Shown here one piece after another: positions 58,886-64,000 of a DNA stretch of 64,000 nucleotides. Position 1 is the first letter of the stretch, and the number at the start of each line of letters is the position of its first letter. The stretch lies in NCBI GenBank assembly GCA_024638915.1, contig JAHEJJ010000002.1:1-64000 (forward strand), in the 5' to 3' direction. Source of the stretch: Robiginitalea sp. GTDB taxonomy: Bacteria; Bacteroidota; Bacteroidia; Flavobacteriales; Flavobacteriaceae. The notes below the pieces were generated by a model. It saw nothing but the letters and a program-made list of their open reading frames with translations. It did no database searches and was not told the origin of the DNA. Both the position numbers and the translations under genes were made by a program.

Positions 58886-59599
58886 ATGTTGTACAAGTTA
58901 AATCTCGAAAACATACTATTTCTGGATATCGAAACAGTTCCGGAATCTGAGCATTATGATAGTTTGGAGGAGATAAAAAGGCAACTATGGGAACAGAAAT
59001 CTCAGTATCAGCGACGAGACGATTATACTGCCGAGGAATTCTACGAAAGGGCGGGAATCTGGGCTGAATTTGGAAAAGTGGTTTGTATTTCGGTGGGATT
59101 CTTCAATATAAAACCCAATTTCAGGAACCTGAGGATCAAATCCTTTCACGGGGAGGAAAAAGACATTCTTAGGGCGTTTAAATCGTTGTTAAACGATAAT
59201 TTCAGCGGCCCGAAAAAATTGCTTTGCGCTCATAACGGAAAGGAATTTGATTTTCCATATATAGCGCGAAGGATGCTTATCCACGGTATAAAACTCCCTT
59301 ATAAACTGGATCTTTTTGGTAAAAAGCCCTGGGAAGTTCCTCATCTTGATACCATGGAGTTGTGGAAATTCGGTGATTATAAGCATTTTACCTCACTGAA
59401 GTTGCTGGCTAATGTCCTGGGAATCCCTTCCCCTAAGGAAGATATTGACGGAAGCATGGTACGGCAGGTGTATTACGAAGACCAGGACCTCGAACGTATC
59501 GTCAGGTACTGCGAACAGGATGTGATTACGGTAGCACAAATCATTTTACGATTGCGCAATGAGGAGTTATTGAGGGAAGACGAGATCGTTTATGTGTAG
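58886..59599 (+). CDS. PolB-like DEDDy 3'-5' exonuclease domain protein
   Basis: 237 residues, a free-standing ribonuclease-H-like exonuclease of the DNA_pol_B_exo family. The acidic motifs are all present: Exo I FLDIETVP (Asp13, Glu15), Exo II HNGKEFDFPYI (Asn, Asp), Exo III YCEQDVITVAQ with Tyr and Asp four residues apart. It would degrade DNA or RNA from the 3' end, perhaps in repair. The last 240 bases (59360-59599) occur again, as a diverged copy, at 63357-63596, on the far side of the redox cluster, which suggests that this 3' end has been exchanged or used as an insertion point. Confidence 0.9.
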   Translation: MLYKLNLENILFLDIETVPESEHYDSLEEIKRQLWEQKSQYQRRDDYTAEEFYERAGIWAEFGKVVCISVGFFNIKPNFRNLRIKSFHGEEKDILRAFKSLLNDNFSGPKKLLCAHNGKEFDFPYIARRMLIHGIKLPYKLDLFGKKPWEVPHLDTMELWKFGDYKHFTSLKLLANVLGIPSPKEDIDGSMVRQVYYEDQDLERIVRYCEQDVITVAQIILRLRNEELLREDEIVYV

Positions 59600-59929
59600 A
59601 ACTACGCTGCCATCCAGCCTGTGATCTATTCTTTCGCGGAAAGACTTCTTCTTACTTTCGCATAAAAGCGGGATCTGGCTATTTACAATATTCAAATGTC
59701 ACGCTTTACGCGGCTGCCTATAAAAGCAGACTTATAAGCCGAAGACGGTATTACCTTTTAAGTTTCCGTTGAGGGTTAATTGATCATTGCTTTGGCCTCA
59801 TTCCCTGCCGTGTACTCCTTCTTTCTAAAAAATTTAGCCTGCATGACCCAAATCATTGCCAAAATGCAGCTAATCTGATAATTTCGAATTCTAAATGCCT
59901 AGTTGTCAATTAGATAAAACTATTTACTC
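59600..59929. other. 330-bp intergenic region between exonuclease and redox cluster
   Basis: No complete gene. A minus-strand frame of about 40 codons ending at 59776 (last residues KEYTAGNEAKAMIN) looks protein-like but has no good start, so it may be a gene remnant. The promoter of the CrtI-like gene must lie here; I found no exact -7 box. Confidence 0.4.
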
Positions 59930-61765
59930 ATGAAGTACAATACCATCATCATAGGCGGTGGCCTGGCGGGATTAACCGCCGGGGCTACCCTTTCAAAATT
60001 TGGAAAAAAGGTACTGCTACTGGAACAACACCATAAACCAGGAGGATGCGCAACCACTTTTAAAAGAGGAGATTTTATTATAGAAGTTGGTCTTCATGAA
60101 ATGAGTGGACTGGCAGAGGGTGGCACCATCAGAAATATCTTCAAAATGCTGGAGGTTGATAAAAACGTTGAATTTCTGCAAGTACCAGAGTTTTACGGCG
60201 TACTATCCGATAAAGAAGACTTTGTGTTTCCCCACGGTTTTGACACGGCGACAAAGGCGCTTTTAGACAAATACCCGGAAGAGGAGAGGGCAATTAAAAA
60301 GTTCATGAAGTTGCTAGCCGGAATCCGGAAGGAAGCGATGAACTTACCGCGATCTCCTTTAAAGCGTAAACTGATCTATCCGCTAATGCCCTTGCTTTAC
60401 CCTAATCTTGTAACGGCAACACAACATACGGTTGGGTCCTGGCTGGATAAACACATAAAAAGTGAAGAGCTAAAACTCGATCTTACAGCGCATGTTGCTT
60501 ACTGGGGCGATGACCCTTACACCTTATCAATGTTTTACTTTGGTTTGCCGTTTGCCGGCTTTATTGAAAGCGGAGGTCACTTTATAAAGGGCGGTTCACA
60601 AAAGTTGTCCGATCACCTGGCGGCCTTCATTGAAAAGCAAGGGGGTACGGTGCTATTGGGTAAAAAGGCAGAGAAAATTATTACCGAAAATGGCAAGGCT
60701 ACAGGAGTTACCTTCCGCGATGTATTTAATAAAGAAGAAGATCCTGTCACCATTAGTTCTGACAATGTAGTAGCCAATGCGGCTATCCCTACGGTGCCGG
60801 CTTTACTGGATGAGCCTTATGCGAGCACACTTAAGCGAATGATAGGCTCATCCCCCGATTCTACCTCACTATTGTGCATGTATTTTGGTTTTAACCAGAA
60901 ATTAGATCAGTTCGGTGTTAAATATTATTCAAACTTTATTAAGGGAGAAGACGTTAAGACATTAAAGGATGTGCACCCCAACCAACTAGGTGATTGGTCT
61001 AAACGCAGTTTTATTTTTGTAGATTATGAAAAGGTCGATGCCGGACTGGCACCGCCTGACAAATCTGAAGGCGTGATCTGTGCTGTTGACCATCTAAAAT
61101 ATTGGGAAAACCTCAGTGATGAAGCATATAAAGCCAAAAAAGAAGAAGTGGCCCAGATCTTATTGCGGCGATTGGAAGAAAAGTTCCCGGGAATAGGAGA
61201 AACCATTGAGTATTATGAAGTCTCCACCCCTAAGACTATCAAGCGATTTACTGCTAATCCAAGTGGGGCAGTATACGGTTTTGCCCAAACCTTGGAATTA
61301 ACGGCGTCTAAGCGATTCAGAAACAATTTCCTTATACCCAACCTGTATTTTGCATCGGCCTGGGCATTTCCGGGTGGTGGTTTTGAAGGTAGCGTAACGG
61401 GCGGATTTTTAGCGGCCTTACAAATGAATAAAGACAAGATCTGGTCAGATACTGACACAGAAAAATACAGTGATGATCGCATCGTGAAACTCAAATCATC
61501 GAAAAAAGTTGATGAAGATACTGTTGAATTGACTTTTGAAAAACCGGAAGGGTTTAAGAATGAAAAAGGGCAATATGCCATTCTCAATCTTAAAAAACCT
61601 AAAGTTACCGAGTTGGATCTGCCCTATCGCTGGCTTCCGTTGGCCTCGAATGGTGAAGATGAACAACTAAGGTTCCAAATAAAAAAGGATGGCAGCAGCT
61701 TCTCTAAAAGTTGTGAGCGGTTAGCGGTTGGAGATGAGGCAATTGTATTTGGACCTATGGGTTAG
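59930..61765 (+). CDS. CrtI-like NAD(P)/FAD oxidoreductase fused to a ferredoxin-reductase FAD domain
   Basis: 611 residues. Residues 1-500 are a phytoene-desaturase/retinol-saturase-like flavoprotein: dinucleotide motif IIIGGGLAGLTAGATL, LEQHHKPGGCATTF, and the C-terminal FAD signature ASAWAFPGGGFEGSVTGG near residue 480. Residues 518-611 match the FAD-binding half of ferredoxin-NADP-reductase-type enzymes (FKNEKGQYAILNL, RWLPLAS, SSFSKSCERLAVGDEAIVFGPMG) and stop exactly after GPMG, so the NAD(P)-binding half is absent. Beyond the TAG the same frame continues FDLDISTFKTIL to a TGA overlapping the next ATG, as if the TAG were a recent nonsense change. Substrate unknown. Confidence 0.85.
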   Translation: MKYNTIIIGGGLAGLTAGATLSKFGKKVLLLEQHHKPGGCATTFKRGDFIIEVGLHEMSGLAEGGTIRNIFKMLEVDKNVEFLQVPEFYGVLSDKEDFVFPHGFDTATKALLDKYPEEERAIKKFMKLLAGIRKEAMNLPRSPLKRKLIYPLMPLLYPNLVTATQHTVGSWLDKHIKSEELKLDLTAHVAYWGDDPYTLSMFYFGLPFAGFIESGGHFIKGGSQKLSDHLAAFIEKQGGTVLLGKKAEKIITENGKATGVTFRDVFNKEEDPVTISSDNVVANAAIPTVPALLDEPYASTLKRMIGSSPDSTSLLCMYFGFNQKLDQFGVKYYSNFIKGEDVKTLKDVHPNQLGDWSKRSFIFVDYEKVDAGLAPPDKSEGVICAVDHLKYWENLSDEAYKAKKEEVAQILLRRLEEKFPGIGETIEYYEVSTPKTIKRFTANPSGAVYGFAQTLELTASKRFRNNFLIPNLYFASAWAFPGGGFEGSVTGGFLAALQMNKDKIWSDTDTEKYSDDRIVKLKSSKKVDEDTVELTFEKPEGFKNEKGQYAILNLKKPKVTELDLPYRWLPLASNGEDEQLRFQIKKDGSSFSKSCERLAVGDEAIVFGPMG

Positions 61766-61800
61766 TTCGATTTAGATATATCCACATTTAAAACCATATT

Positions 61801-62319
61801 ATGAAGGGAGCAATATTTTTCTCAGGCAAGTACGGTAGTACAGAACAATATGCCAACTGGATAAGTGAAGCCACAGGGCTTCCTGTTTTCGATATCAAGG
61901 ATCCCAATGCCGATCCATCAAAATACGAGTATCTGATATTGGGCAGTTCCATCCTTTATTTTGGGCTATCTATCCGAAAGTGGATAAAAGCAAATAGATC
62001 AAAACTAGAGAACAGGGCGAAGATCTTGTTCTCTGTCTCAGGTGCCGGGCCGAGCGCTAAACTCAACCGATGGGTTGCCAAATCCCTTCCATCTGAGTTA
62101 GCTTTACAAATGGAGCATGTGGCCCTTCGAGGCAGGTTAGACCATTCCAAAGTCAGTTGGTGGGTTCGACAGATCCTGTGGATGGGCTCCCTTTTTAATC
62201 CTGATGCTGCAGCCCGTAAAGATGAGCGCTATGGCTTTGATTATATGGATAAGGACAGTATAGAGCCCATTTTAAGATTGGTCGCGCAATTCAAACAGTC
62301 TGAAGTGCTTGTAGAGTAA
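61801..62319 (+). CDS. flavodoxin-domain protein, HemG-like
   Basis: 172 residues. FMN-binding phosphate loop FFSGKYGSTEQYANWI at the N-terminus, then YLILGSSILYFGLSI and ILFSVSGAGPS, the standard flavodoxin_5 pattern shared with HemG-type protoporphyrinogen oxidase. The C-terminal half is more basic and Trp-rich (KVSWWVRQILWMG). Because a HemJ candidate is present elsewhere in the window and this gene sits in a redox cluster, a general electron carrier is as likely as a haem role. The ATG overlaps the TGA that would end a read-through of the upstream fusion. Confidence 0.85.
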   Translation: MKGAIFFSGKYGSTEQYANWISEATGLPVFDIKDPNADPSKYEYLILGSSILYFGLSIRKWIKANRSKLENRAKILFSVSGAGPSAKLNRWVAKSLPSELALQMEHVALRGRLDHSKVSWWVRQILWMGSLFNPDAAARKDERYGFDYMDKDSIEPILRLVAQFKQSEVLVE

Positions 62320-62352
62320 TCGCTAAAATGTCCTACAGATAATACTGTAAAG

Positions 62353-63111
62353 ATGGATGAAAGATTAAAAATACTAGCAATCTGCGGAAGCCCGCACAAA
62401 GGAAATACCTATGAGCTACTTAGGGTGCTTAAGCAGAGTAATCCTGAAATAGATTTCAAGATTCTCATGCTTGCTGAACTTAATCTTGAGGACTGTATGG
62501 GTTGTTATTCATGCATCAATAATGGCGAAGAGAGTTGTCCCCTCCGAGATGATCGTGATAAGATTATTGAAGAAATGAAAAATGCTGACGGGACCATCTT
62601 TGCGTCTCCTACCTATGCCAGAACCATCAGCGCATTGATGAAGAAATTTGTGGAGCGTACAAGCTTTATTGCCCATCGGCCCGTATTCTTTGGAAAATAT
62701 GCCATGGCTCTGGGCACCTGTGCGGGGTTTGGTGCGGATCTGACCTGTAAGTATCTCACCGAAAACTTTACTCAATATGGATTCAACTTCGTCCCCTCGG
62801 TGGAATTGATGGTAACACGAAAAACGGAAAATGAAACCAATCATAATCGAACTCAGGCAACCAAAGCTTACGAAAAACTGATTAGTGCGATTCGTTCTAA
62901 GGAGAAAGTCGAACCCTCACTAAACCAGCTGGTGTATTTCAACATCTTCAAATCAATTGCTGAATGGAATAAATTGAAAGGATGGGCGGATTACGAGTTT
63001 TACCAGGACAAGAAAGACTTCTATTACAGCGTTAAAATTCCCTTTTTGAAGAATAAAATAGCCAAGTGGGTTTCGGGAAGAGTAATTAAGAAGATGATGG
63101 CAAATAGATAA
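62353..63111 (+). CDS. NADPH-dependent FMN reductase / iron-sulfur flavoprotein-like
   Basis: 252 residues. Flavodoxin-like fold of the FMN_red family: ILAICGSPHKGNTYELLR for FMN phosphate and ASPTYARTISALMKKFVER for the flavin ring. DCMGCYSCINNGEESCPL near residue 52 has four Cys in the spacing of the iron-sulfur flavoproteins, so it may bind a [4Fe-4S] cluster. The C-terminal 70 residues form a helical tail with aromatic and basic residues. It lies 33 bases after the flavodoxin gene, completing a three-gene electron-transfer cluster. Confidence 0.85.
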   Translation: MDERLKILAICGSPHKGNTYELLRVLKQSNPEIDFKILMLAELNLEDCMGCYSCINNGEESCPLRDDRDKIIEEMKNADGTIFASPTYARTISALMKKFVERTSFIAHRPVFFGKYAMALGTCAGFGADLTCKYLTENFTQYGFNFVPSVELMVTRKTENETNHNRTQATKAYEKLISAIRSKEKVEPSLNQLVYFNIFKSIAEWNKLKGWADYEFYQDKKDFYYSVKIPFLKNKIAKWVSGRVIKKMMANR

Positions 63112-63356
63112 AGTTGTTTTTCAGGTTTATGAAATGATGGCACAAAAGCAAATATCAACGAAAAACGTTACAAAAGAATACACTACCTGGGAGTAGGTTT
63201 TTGCATTGGCAAAGCCGATGAAATTCATCACATTCAAGAAGGGGCGAATTACTGCTAAAGTGAGAACATACTCTGACGTTTGATTCCGCTGCAAGGCCAT
63301 ACACAAGTATTCACTTCCATAGAAATCTTTATTCATTTAAATATTAAAAATTAGAT

Positions 63357-63596
63357 GTCTGGAAATTCGGGGATTATAAGAATTTTACCTCTCTGAAGTT
63401 ACTGGCTAATGTACTGGGAATCCCCTCGCCTAAAGAAGATATGGACGGCAGCATGGTCAGAGAAGTTTATTATAAAGAAGGTGATTTGGATCGTATTATA
63501 GCTTATTGCGAATTAGATGTTATTACGTTAGCACAAGTTTTTCTAAGACTACGAAATGACCCATTGTTGCAGGGGGATGAAATCATTCATACATAA
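63357..63596 (+). pseudogene. detached 3' end of a second exonuclease gene
   Basis: 79 codons plus stop, in frame throughout, begin at VWKFGDYKNFTSL and end at the TAA at 63594. They align without gaps to the C-terminal 79 residues of the exonuclease at 58886-59599; by my hand count 58 of 79 residues are identical. Exo III is kept (YCELDVITLAQ), but Exo I and Exo II and any start codon are missing, so this cannot be a working enzyme. Similarity starts abruptly at TGGAAATTCGG and nothing upstream matches. It is a recombination or integration remnant. Confidence 0.85.
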
Positions 63597-63847: not shown

Positions 63848-64000
63848 ATGAGCCAGCAAACAGACCCCGACAAGCCAGAGGAAAATTTAGGTTTCTTGTT
63901 ATGGCAAACCAATATGATTTGGCACAGAGAACTGAATAGAGCCTTGGAAAACATAGGACTGACGCATACTCAATTTGCTATCATATCAGCACTCAGATGG
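63848..64000 (+). CDS. MarR family transcriptional regulator, N-terminal part (cut by window end)
   Basis: The first 51 residues are in the window and the frame is open to the edge. After a polar N-terminus (MSQQTDPDKPEENLG), FLLWQTNMIWHRELNRALENIG and LTHTQFAIISALRW are the dimerisation helix and the first part of the winged-helix domain of MarR proteins. They usually repress their own and neighbouring genes and let go when a phenolic or oxidising ligand binds. The redox cluster lies upstream, behind the exonuclease remnant, so regulation of it is possible but unproven. Confidence 0.85.
   Translation, partial: MSQQTDPDKPEENLGFLLWQTNMIWHRELNRALENIGLTHTQFAIISALRW

Follow-up and report, generated by a model that had tools for sequence, protein, structure and literature searches.

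Why should a flavobacterial exonuclease gene be followed by a second copy of its own 3′ end? The question arises from a 64,000-nucleotide stretch of Robiginitalea sp. (positions 1 to 64,000 of contig JAHEJJ010000002.1, GenBank assembly GCA_024638915.1; hereafter the window), in which two such ends, on the forward strand like every feature given window coordinates here, enclose three redox genes. A preliminary description of the stretch proposed that an element had integrated into the gene end, bringing a replacement and pushing the old end to the far side, or else that the repeat was a scar of homologous recombination. From the sequence comparisons below, it appears fairly probable that the locus holds an array of two tandem units, both inserted at a single fixed dinucleotide, the TG of codon 160, by a recombinase supplied in trans, and that it was reshuffled later. 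We read it as a tandem island array of the kind known from the staphylococcal cassette chromosome (SCC) and the ssrA islands of Dehalococcoides, at a new target, and the comparisons point to the exonuclease site as a hot spot for the accumulation of gene cassettes and their exchange among genera.

The exonuclease gene and its repeated ends

The target gene (58,886–59,599) encodes a 3′-5′ exonuclease of 237 amino acids (Pfam PF10108). Its last 240 nucleotides, the 3′ end in use (end 1, 59,360–59,599), recur as a displaced copy (end 2, 63,357–63,596). The two align without gaps, in frame and on the same strand, with 175 of 240 nucleotides identical, and their translations agree at 59 of 80 codons when the stop is included, which bears out the 58 of 79 residues counted in the preliminary description. 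Differences fall on first, second and third codon positions 21, 7 and 37 times, respectively, and PF10108 is recognised in both copies (1.6e-17 and 1.4e-10). When the last 6.5 kb were compared with the window by BLASTN, the best non-self match was 98 bp long at 89.8% identity (E = 3e-30). The repeat edge is as abrupt as described: the shared block runs from a TG at 59,363 and 63,360, the preceding three bases being TTG in one copy and GTC in the other. We take this TG of codon 160 (59,363–59,364) to be the 2-bp crossover point and thus the insertion site, given where displaced copies begin and where serine-recombinase elements end (see below). Between ends 1 and 2 lie three cargo genes, which by Pfam encode a CrtI-like flavoprotein, a flavodoxin-domain protein and an FMN reductase.

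What was the original end of the gene? Searched against the whole genome, the exonuclease protein matches three places, namely the gene itself, 63,348–63,590 and 67,867–68,052. The last of these (end 3; contig coordinates, beyond the window) lies 4.5 kb past end 2 and is decayed, with a TGA inside. Along the contig the exonuclease is followed by the redox trio, end 2, a MarR regulator, an unassigned 171-aa protein, a GH3 hydrolase, a DUF4386 protein and end 3, after which come an endonuclease/exonuclease/phosphatase-family gene on the opposite strand and a GTPase that we take to be HflX. The congener G001 has the empty site that an insertion had been expected to leave in relatives, 29 bp separating the exonuclease from the gene that follows it; that gene is the phosphatase-family gene, not the marR region as anticipated, and it is the one that end 3 adjoins in the window's genome. 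Because end 3 and G001 share their C-terminal codons and a stretch running into the neighbouring gene, end 3 is most likely the original, native 3′ end of the window's gene. The exonuclease and the phosphatase-family gene lie at most 600 bp apart in six genomes looked at (G001, G019, G002, G012, G369 and G418). No such neighbour was found at four loci with 7–13 kb of sequence (G028, G029, G338 and G270), so this gene order is not universal; many other loci in the comparison were covered by 1.5 kb only.

Arrays at one codon in other genomes

Is the layout peculiar to this genome? The exonuclease has a match in 352 of the 397 family genomes searched, a single one in 345 of them and more than one in 7. 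Displaced ends that start at the TG occur in five of the 352: the window's genome (G000), Flavobacteriaceae bacterium D16 (G149), a Maribacter metagenome-assembled genome (MAG; G270), Eudoraea adriatica DSM 19308 (G326) and Robiginitalea aurantiaca M39 (G382). Two multi-match genomes were left out of the array count. In G228 the extra copies come from a 9.3-kb contig that contains the exonuclease locus twice, in inverted arrangement, and that we read as an assembly artefact; in G126 the exonuclease is split at a different codon (~120) by another serine recombinase (684 aa), a separate event. With this G126 element, recombinases of at least two types seem to target the same exonuclease gene. 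A degenerate junction pattern run over the genome collection returned 15 stretches, 12 of them with exonuclease ends, in 9 genomes; the three without such an end (Prochlorococcus, Falkowbacteria and Campylobacteraceae) were taken as chance. The nine genomes are D16, G270, G326, G382, two Eudoraea MAGs and an uncultured Eudoraea (G420, G421 and G422), a Bacteroidetes MAG (G423) and Flavobacterium UBA4098 (G424), the last with a recombinase element only. The layout of the window's genome is therefore shared by eight others, nine array genomes in all, and in these the duplication surrounds other cargo too, a prospect already raised from the window alone.

The largest arrays (G382 and G326) have seven ends, counting the one in the gene, that of G326 being spread over three contigs, two of which overlap by 2613 bp. 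In G420 and G423 the gene and the last end stand on separate contigs, and G421, which may be a mixed bin, has two contigs with a full exonuclease each. The exonuclease frame is intact in eight of the nine array genomes, D16 being the exception. The most distal recognised ends contain stops in G000, G382, G326 and G420 and none in G270, G422 and G423.

The displaced copies share one boundary. We counted 28 copies in 10 genomes, and 24 of them keep their start, which is always the same TG; the start is lost in copy 3 of G000, copy 3 of G382, and copy 2 and the last copy of G422. At 23 of the 24 junctions an AT-rich arm, P, ends at this TG, with the consensus TTA-ATATTAAAAATTA-A-CTC; in the window this attachment-site arm closes the first cassette (TTTAAATATTAAAAATTAGATGTC, 63,336–63,359). 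Over its 24 columns arm P holds 28.5 bits of information, where 300 random sets averaged 3.2 and reached 4.9 at most; the junction without P (last copy of G382) was excluded from the bit count. A 13-base form of the arm fits 21 of the 24 junctions. Eight of the 23 arms were found by the arm pattern, 2 lie in a genome that the pattern brought in, and 13 were found by protein similarity alone. As in SCC and the ssrA islands, then, there is a single fixed site in one gene, with gene-end repeats at the unit borders, and a conserved motif just upstream of the displaced repeats.

Where do the ends come from? In a tree of 234 nt (without support values; starts uncorrected for G421a_1, by 3 bases, and for the decayed last copies of G422 and G000), with which nearest-neighbour identities agree for the ends named here, end 3 of the window's genome groups with its congener G001. 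End 1 groups with G338, a congener of D16 (identity 0.81, compared with 0.70 to G001 in a table in which seven copies begin 3 bases off and two decayed ones at other points), and end 2 falls among Eudoraea-type ends (best identity 0.80). End 2 is thus an intermediate end and not, as had been supposed, the original one, and the 27% divergence once read as the distance of the element's donor compares two foreign ends. The last copies of G382 and G423, the latter on a different contig from the gene, group with G214, a Robiginitalea-genus congener of G382. Within G326, copies 1, 3, 6 and the last are Eudoraea-type, 2 and 5 are D16-type and 4 is of a third type; copies 2 and 6 of G382 have an identity of 0.91. 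Ends from different genera mostly differ by 20–30%.

Judged from its site patterns, the window's exonuclease gene is a chimera of a native, congener-like 5′ part and a foreign 3′ third like that of another genus. It sides with G001, as against G338, at 100 of 128 informative sites before nt 438–444 and at 18 of 67 after, and this best breakpoint has a likelihood ratio of 49 (permutation p 0.0005). The TG stands at nt 478, with few informative sites between it and the breakpoint. The gene G423a behaves like the window's (breakpoint 451–459); G382 and G270 have significant breakpoints too, but at nt 323 and nt 647. None was found in three control genes (G338, G420a and G422), the last of which itself heads an array with a native-like end. 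Across 39 exonuclease proteins, the correlation between 5′ and 3′ distances has a median of 0.11 in 7 array-heading genes versus 0.515 in 32 others (Mann-Whitney p 0.0008). The 32 include a duplicate (L005 = G033) and G420a, from a genome in which a displaced end stands on a different contig; removing the former and regrouping the latter gives p 0.0012. Since the comparisons are non-independent, these p values are a guide only. Thus, insertion with a replacement 3′ end stands in outline, with an empty site in G001, a foreign end in use and the native end most distal, but at least two insertions are needed instead of the single one first proposed.

Recombinase elements and a proposed mode of insertion

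What kind of enzyme could act at this TG? A large-serine-recombinase element splits the exonuclease at this TG in both D16 and Flavobacterium UBA4098. The large recombinases (508 and 517 aa) have resolvase, recombinase and zinc-ribbon domains, the small serine recombinases (224 and 230 aa) are 63% identical to each other, and two more small proteins are common to both elements. When the flanks are joined at the TG, the full reading frame is restored in both genomes, attL and attR meeting there. The end arms of each element are inverted repeats (17/24, p 0.003, and 20/24, p 0.0004). All four score 16–19 of 20 against the cassette-arm consensus, a score of at least 16 being reached at 6.5e-5 of positions; the consensus includes the two outer-right element arms, and the two left arms (16 and 19) are independent of it. 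Among NCBIfam models, CcrB is the best for all four recombinases, at 52–129 bits against a cut-off of 900, with CcrC and XisF nearly as close for the large D16 enzyme. None belongs to the curated CcrA, CcrB or CcrC equivalogs of NCBIfam, their scores being far below the cut-off, and we therefore claim likeness to Ccr, not membership. A Ccr-like large and small pair at the site was seen in D16 and UBA4098 only. The D16-type recombinase occurs in two of the 397 family genomes (E ≤ 1e-40), D16 and G365, the latter with no exonuclease beside it in the short flank covered.

Large serine recombinases of a separate kind stand beside comM/yifB-like genes in three array genomes, G326 (Mg-chelatase domains checked), G382 and G422 (both judged by eye). 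They are 23–24% identical to the D16 enzyme and were not counted as resident trans-acting recombinases; G382 additionally has a broken large-serine-recombinase fragment. Two Pfam-assigned genes of the D16 element, a C5 cytosine methylase and a SinI-type restriction endonuclease, stand between its recombinases and the 5′ part of the exonuclease and are likely a restriction-modification pair.

How might the arrays have grown? A unit would comprise a 3′ third to replace that of the exonuclease (B′, 234 bp counted from the TG, with its stop), passenger genes and a terminal arm P. A Ccr-like recombinase, acting in trans and non-resident, would join circular units through their P.B′ junction to the B.B′ site of the gene, which would stay whole with a new tail as the old tail shifts downstream, behind P. 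New units would enter at the gene, older ends being pushed outward to decay, and homologous recombination between the repeated tails would then reshuffle cargo and tails. At the window locus the units measure ~4–4.5 kb each, the second having lost its terminal arm P. The replaced third contains YCExDV, which we take to be the third catalytic motif of DEDD exonucleases. An element inserted without it should therefore inactivate the gene, and a unit with its own third should keep the gene working, which fits the intact frame in all array genomes except D16.

Several observations weigh against such insertion in trans: (i) no integrase is visible, as the preliminary description had remarked, a search of the window's genome (98% complete) for resolvase-domain proteins gave none, and of the nine array genomes, several of them incomplete, only D16 was found to have the exo-type large serine recombinase; (ii) the D16 and UBA4098 elements are without B′ and interrupt the gene; (iii) the in-use end of E. 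adriatica is native-like, and the chimera breakpoints of G000 and G423a precede the TG by 20–40 nt, those of G382 and G270 being far from it; and (iv) viral contigs gave 0 matches to the junction pattern, and searches with the exonuclease end gave one distant match in plasmids and 25 records in phages, all below 60% identity. Most serious is the relation of cargo to ends. The 357-aa cargo of G382 and G326 is 90% identical from near the stop of the preceding end through P (1078/1199, with three weaker windows), as against 74% in the preceding end and 70% just past the TG. The 316-aa cargo of G270 and G421 reaches 93% (1145/1229), with 74% before and 82% after, and the redox trio of G000 and G422 reaches 85%, with 73% in the preceding exonuclease end. 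Insertion of intact [end - cargo - P] circles alone is thus insufficient, since a circle of this kind would bring in cargo and preceding end together. Either the ends have since been exchanged by homologous recombination within the repeats, or the left border depends on another process. Because cargo is not inherited together with its neighbouring ends in the pairs that were compared, homologous recombination probably also contributes to the shuffling of arrays. This mismatch is the weakest step, and our confidence in the mechanism is accordingly moderate.

Could homologous recombination have done all of the work? An early site-specific event would then have made the first P.B′ junction, followed by growth and spread via the 234-bp ends and the arms with no recombinase at all. 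This would suit the unlinked cargo and ends, the likeness of same-genome ends before different cargo (copies 1, 3, 6 and last of G326; 2 and 6 of G382) and the missing resolvase-domain protein. We nevertheless consider it unlikely: the right edge is P|TG at 23 of 24 junctions, with shared-cargo identity falling about there, the arms match serine-recombinase elements at the same TG, and the 20–30% divergence of most between-genus ends makes for poor RecA substrates. The recombination scar of the preliminary description may still be right, and recombination of this sort probably contributes.

An integron-like system, with a tyrosine recombinase using the exonuclease end as its site, is very improbable. 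It would account for small, mostly co-oriented and shared cassettes that include a ParDE pair, but none of 10 genomes has an integron integrase (TIGR02249) above the curated cut-off, weaker matches occurring in 10 of 10 and in 14 of 14 controls, and the arms resemble those of serine-recombinase elements. Ordinary gene duplication, in which full-length paralogues were truncated later, would explain homologous, in-frame copies and is rejected as next to impossible, given the single match in 345 of 352 matching family genomes, the one codon at which all start-keeping displaced copies begin, the grouping of the three ends of the window's genome with three different genera, and redox genes that stand at other array positions in two other genomes, not always between vertically inherited copies.

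Known systems and cargo

Insertion of the SCC into rlmH is carried out by Ccr serine recombinases at one chromosomal target and yields tandem composite arrays that include recombinase-less units; the SCC carries only a few terminal rlmH bases. The present arrays resemble it in their Ccr-like recombinases, single target gene and recombinase-less tandem units, and differ in that a third of the target protein is replaced and the recombinases score far below the NCBIfam Ccr cut-offs. Chromosomal integrons form arrays of small co-oriented cassettes with toxin-antitoxin cargo, shared between genera. All of these traits recur here, whereas an integron integrase above the cut-off does not, and the site is a gene end with a serine-recombinase-type arm.

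The closest anatomy is that of the tandem ssrA islands of Dehalococcoides, as outlined in passages of PMC3146451. According to these passages, the islands stand in tandem at one gene's 3′ end, bounded by end repeats, with a short motif immediately preceding the displaced repeats; 16 of 31 islands have a large serine recombinase resembling CcrB (DsiB) and a small one (DsiA), the rest being without integration module, and in vcr islands cargo and integration parts have discordant histories (PMC3146451). The likeness extends to tandem units, gene-end repeats, upstream motif, large and small recombinases and discordant cargo. Unlike those islands, which use a tmRNA gene with a 20-bp repeat and were described from one genus and one environmental fosmid, the present arrays use a protein gene with a 234-bp coding third and occur in several genera, and the recombinase was found in only 1 of 9 array genomes. 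The same passages describe cis-mobilizable elements as att-site-flanked units that have no recombination genes and accrete in tandem (PMC3146451). The window's first unit is likewise flanked by att-like sites and without a recombinase of its own; it differs in that the cargo is shared across genera.

What is new here is the protein-gene target, the far longer replaced gene part, the small cassette-like units and the exchange between genera. No paper on insertion into this exonuclease gene was found among the openly licensed PMC papers listed, as judged by titles and abstract starts. SCC and ssrA islands as a kind would gain a protein-coding target and another bacterial group, and the locus suggests how a mid-coding site could be reused without gene loss, the passenger supplying the missing third. 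The displaced ends would record insertion order and donor genus, making between-genus transfer readable from the array, and a recombinase acting in trans is a testable claim. Since the ends are of varied origin and a resident recombinase is missing, there is also room for a bolder and more tentative reading, which we think possible but doubtful: a gene-capture platform separate from integrons, in which the 3′ third of a housekeeping exonuclease gene would be a recombination half-site, a transient Ccr-like serine recombinase would insert circular [exonuclease end - cargo - P] cassettes immediately after the gene, and arrays of up to seven or more ends would serve several flavobacterial genera as a common cassette pool.

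What do the units carry? Of 76 open reading frames (ORFs) of at least 90 aa called in the array stretches, 8 belonged to the G422 and G149 flanks and were dropped. The other 68, six of which stand in G326 between the phosphatase-family gene and the last end recognised there, share the orientation of the exonuclease in 65 cases. In the window the cargo comprises a CrtI-like FAD oxidoreductase (611 aa, 59,930–61,765, PF01593), a flavodoxin-domain protein (172 aa, 61,801–62,319, PF12724) and a member of the NADPH-dependent FMN reductase family (252 aa, 62,353–63,111, PF03358). The second cassette's cargo starts with the MarR regulator (63,848–64,000, continuing past the window). The preliminary description had suggested comparing base composition, and the three cargo genes, with GC of 0.41–0.45, do not stand out from the upstream window (0.446). 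The redox trio is complete in G422 and lacks the flavodoxin in D16, at 78–90% identity and in different surroundings: the CrtI-like protein has homologues of 88 and 90% in the G422 and D16 arrays, the flavodoxin one of 85% in G422, and the FMN reductase ones of 78% (D16) and 90% (G422). An exonuclease-end remnant, seen by eye, precedes the redox genes in D16. At E ≤ 1e-50 the CrtI-like gene has matches in 3 of 100 family genomes, one of them the window's; in the other two, G033 (68%) and G024 (46%), it stands away from the exonuclease.

Other cargo is shared as well: a DUF4386 protein by G000 and G382 (81%), the 357-aa protein by G382 and G326 (89%), a 316/339-aa protein by G270 and G421 (93%) and a peptidase-like protein by G382 and G422 (59%). 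One unit of G420 carries a ParDE toxin-antitoxin pair (L114:1636-2176) just before the last, decayed exonuclease end; such pairs are common in integron arrays. Redox enzymes, hydrolases and the ParDE pair would thus be among the travelling cargo to which these arrays point. Finally, a palindrome-like ATAGTTATTAACTATATCC block lies between exonuclease end and cargo start in several units: after the stop of ends 1, 3, 6 and last in G326 and, in similar form, in G422 and upstream of the MarR gene (from 63,762 in the window). It is a candidate operator, promoter or left-border part.

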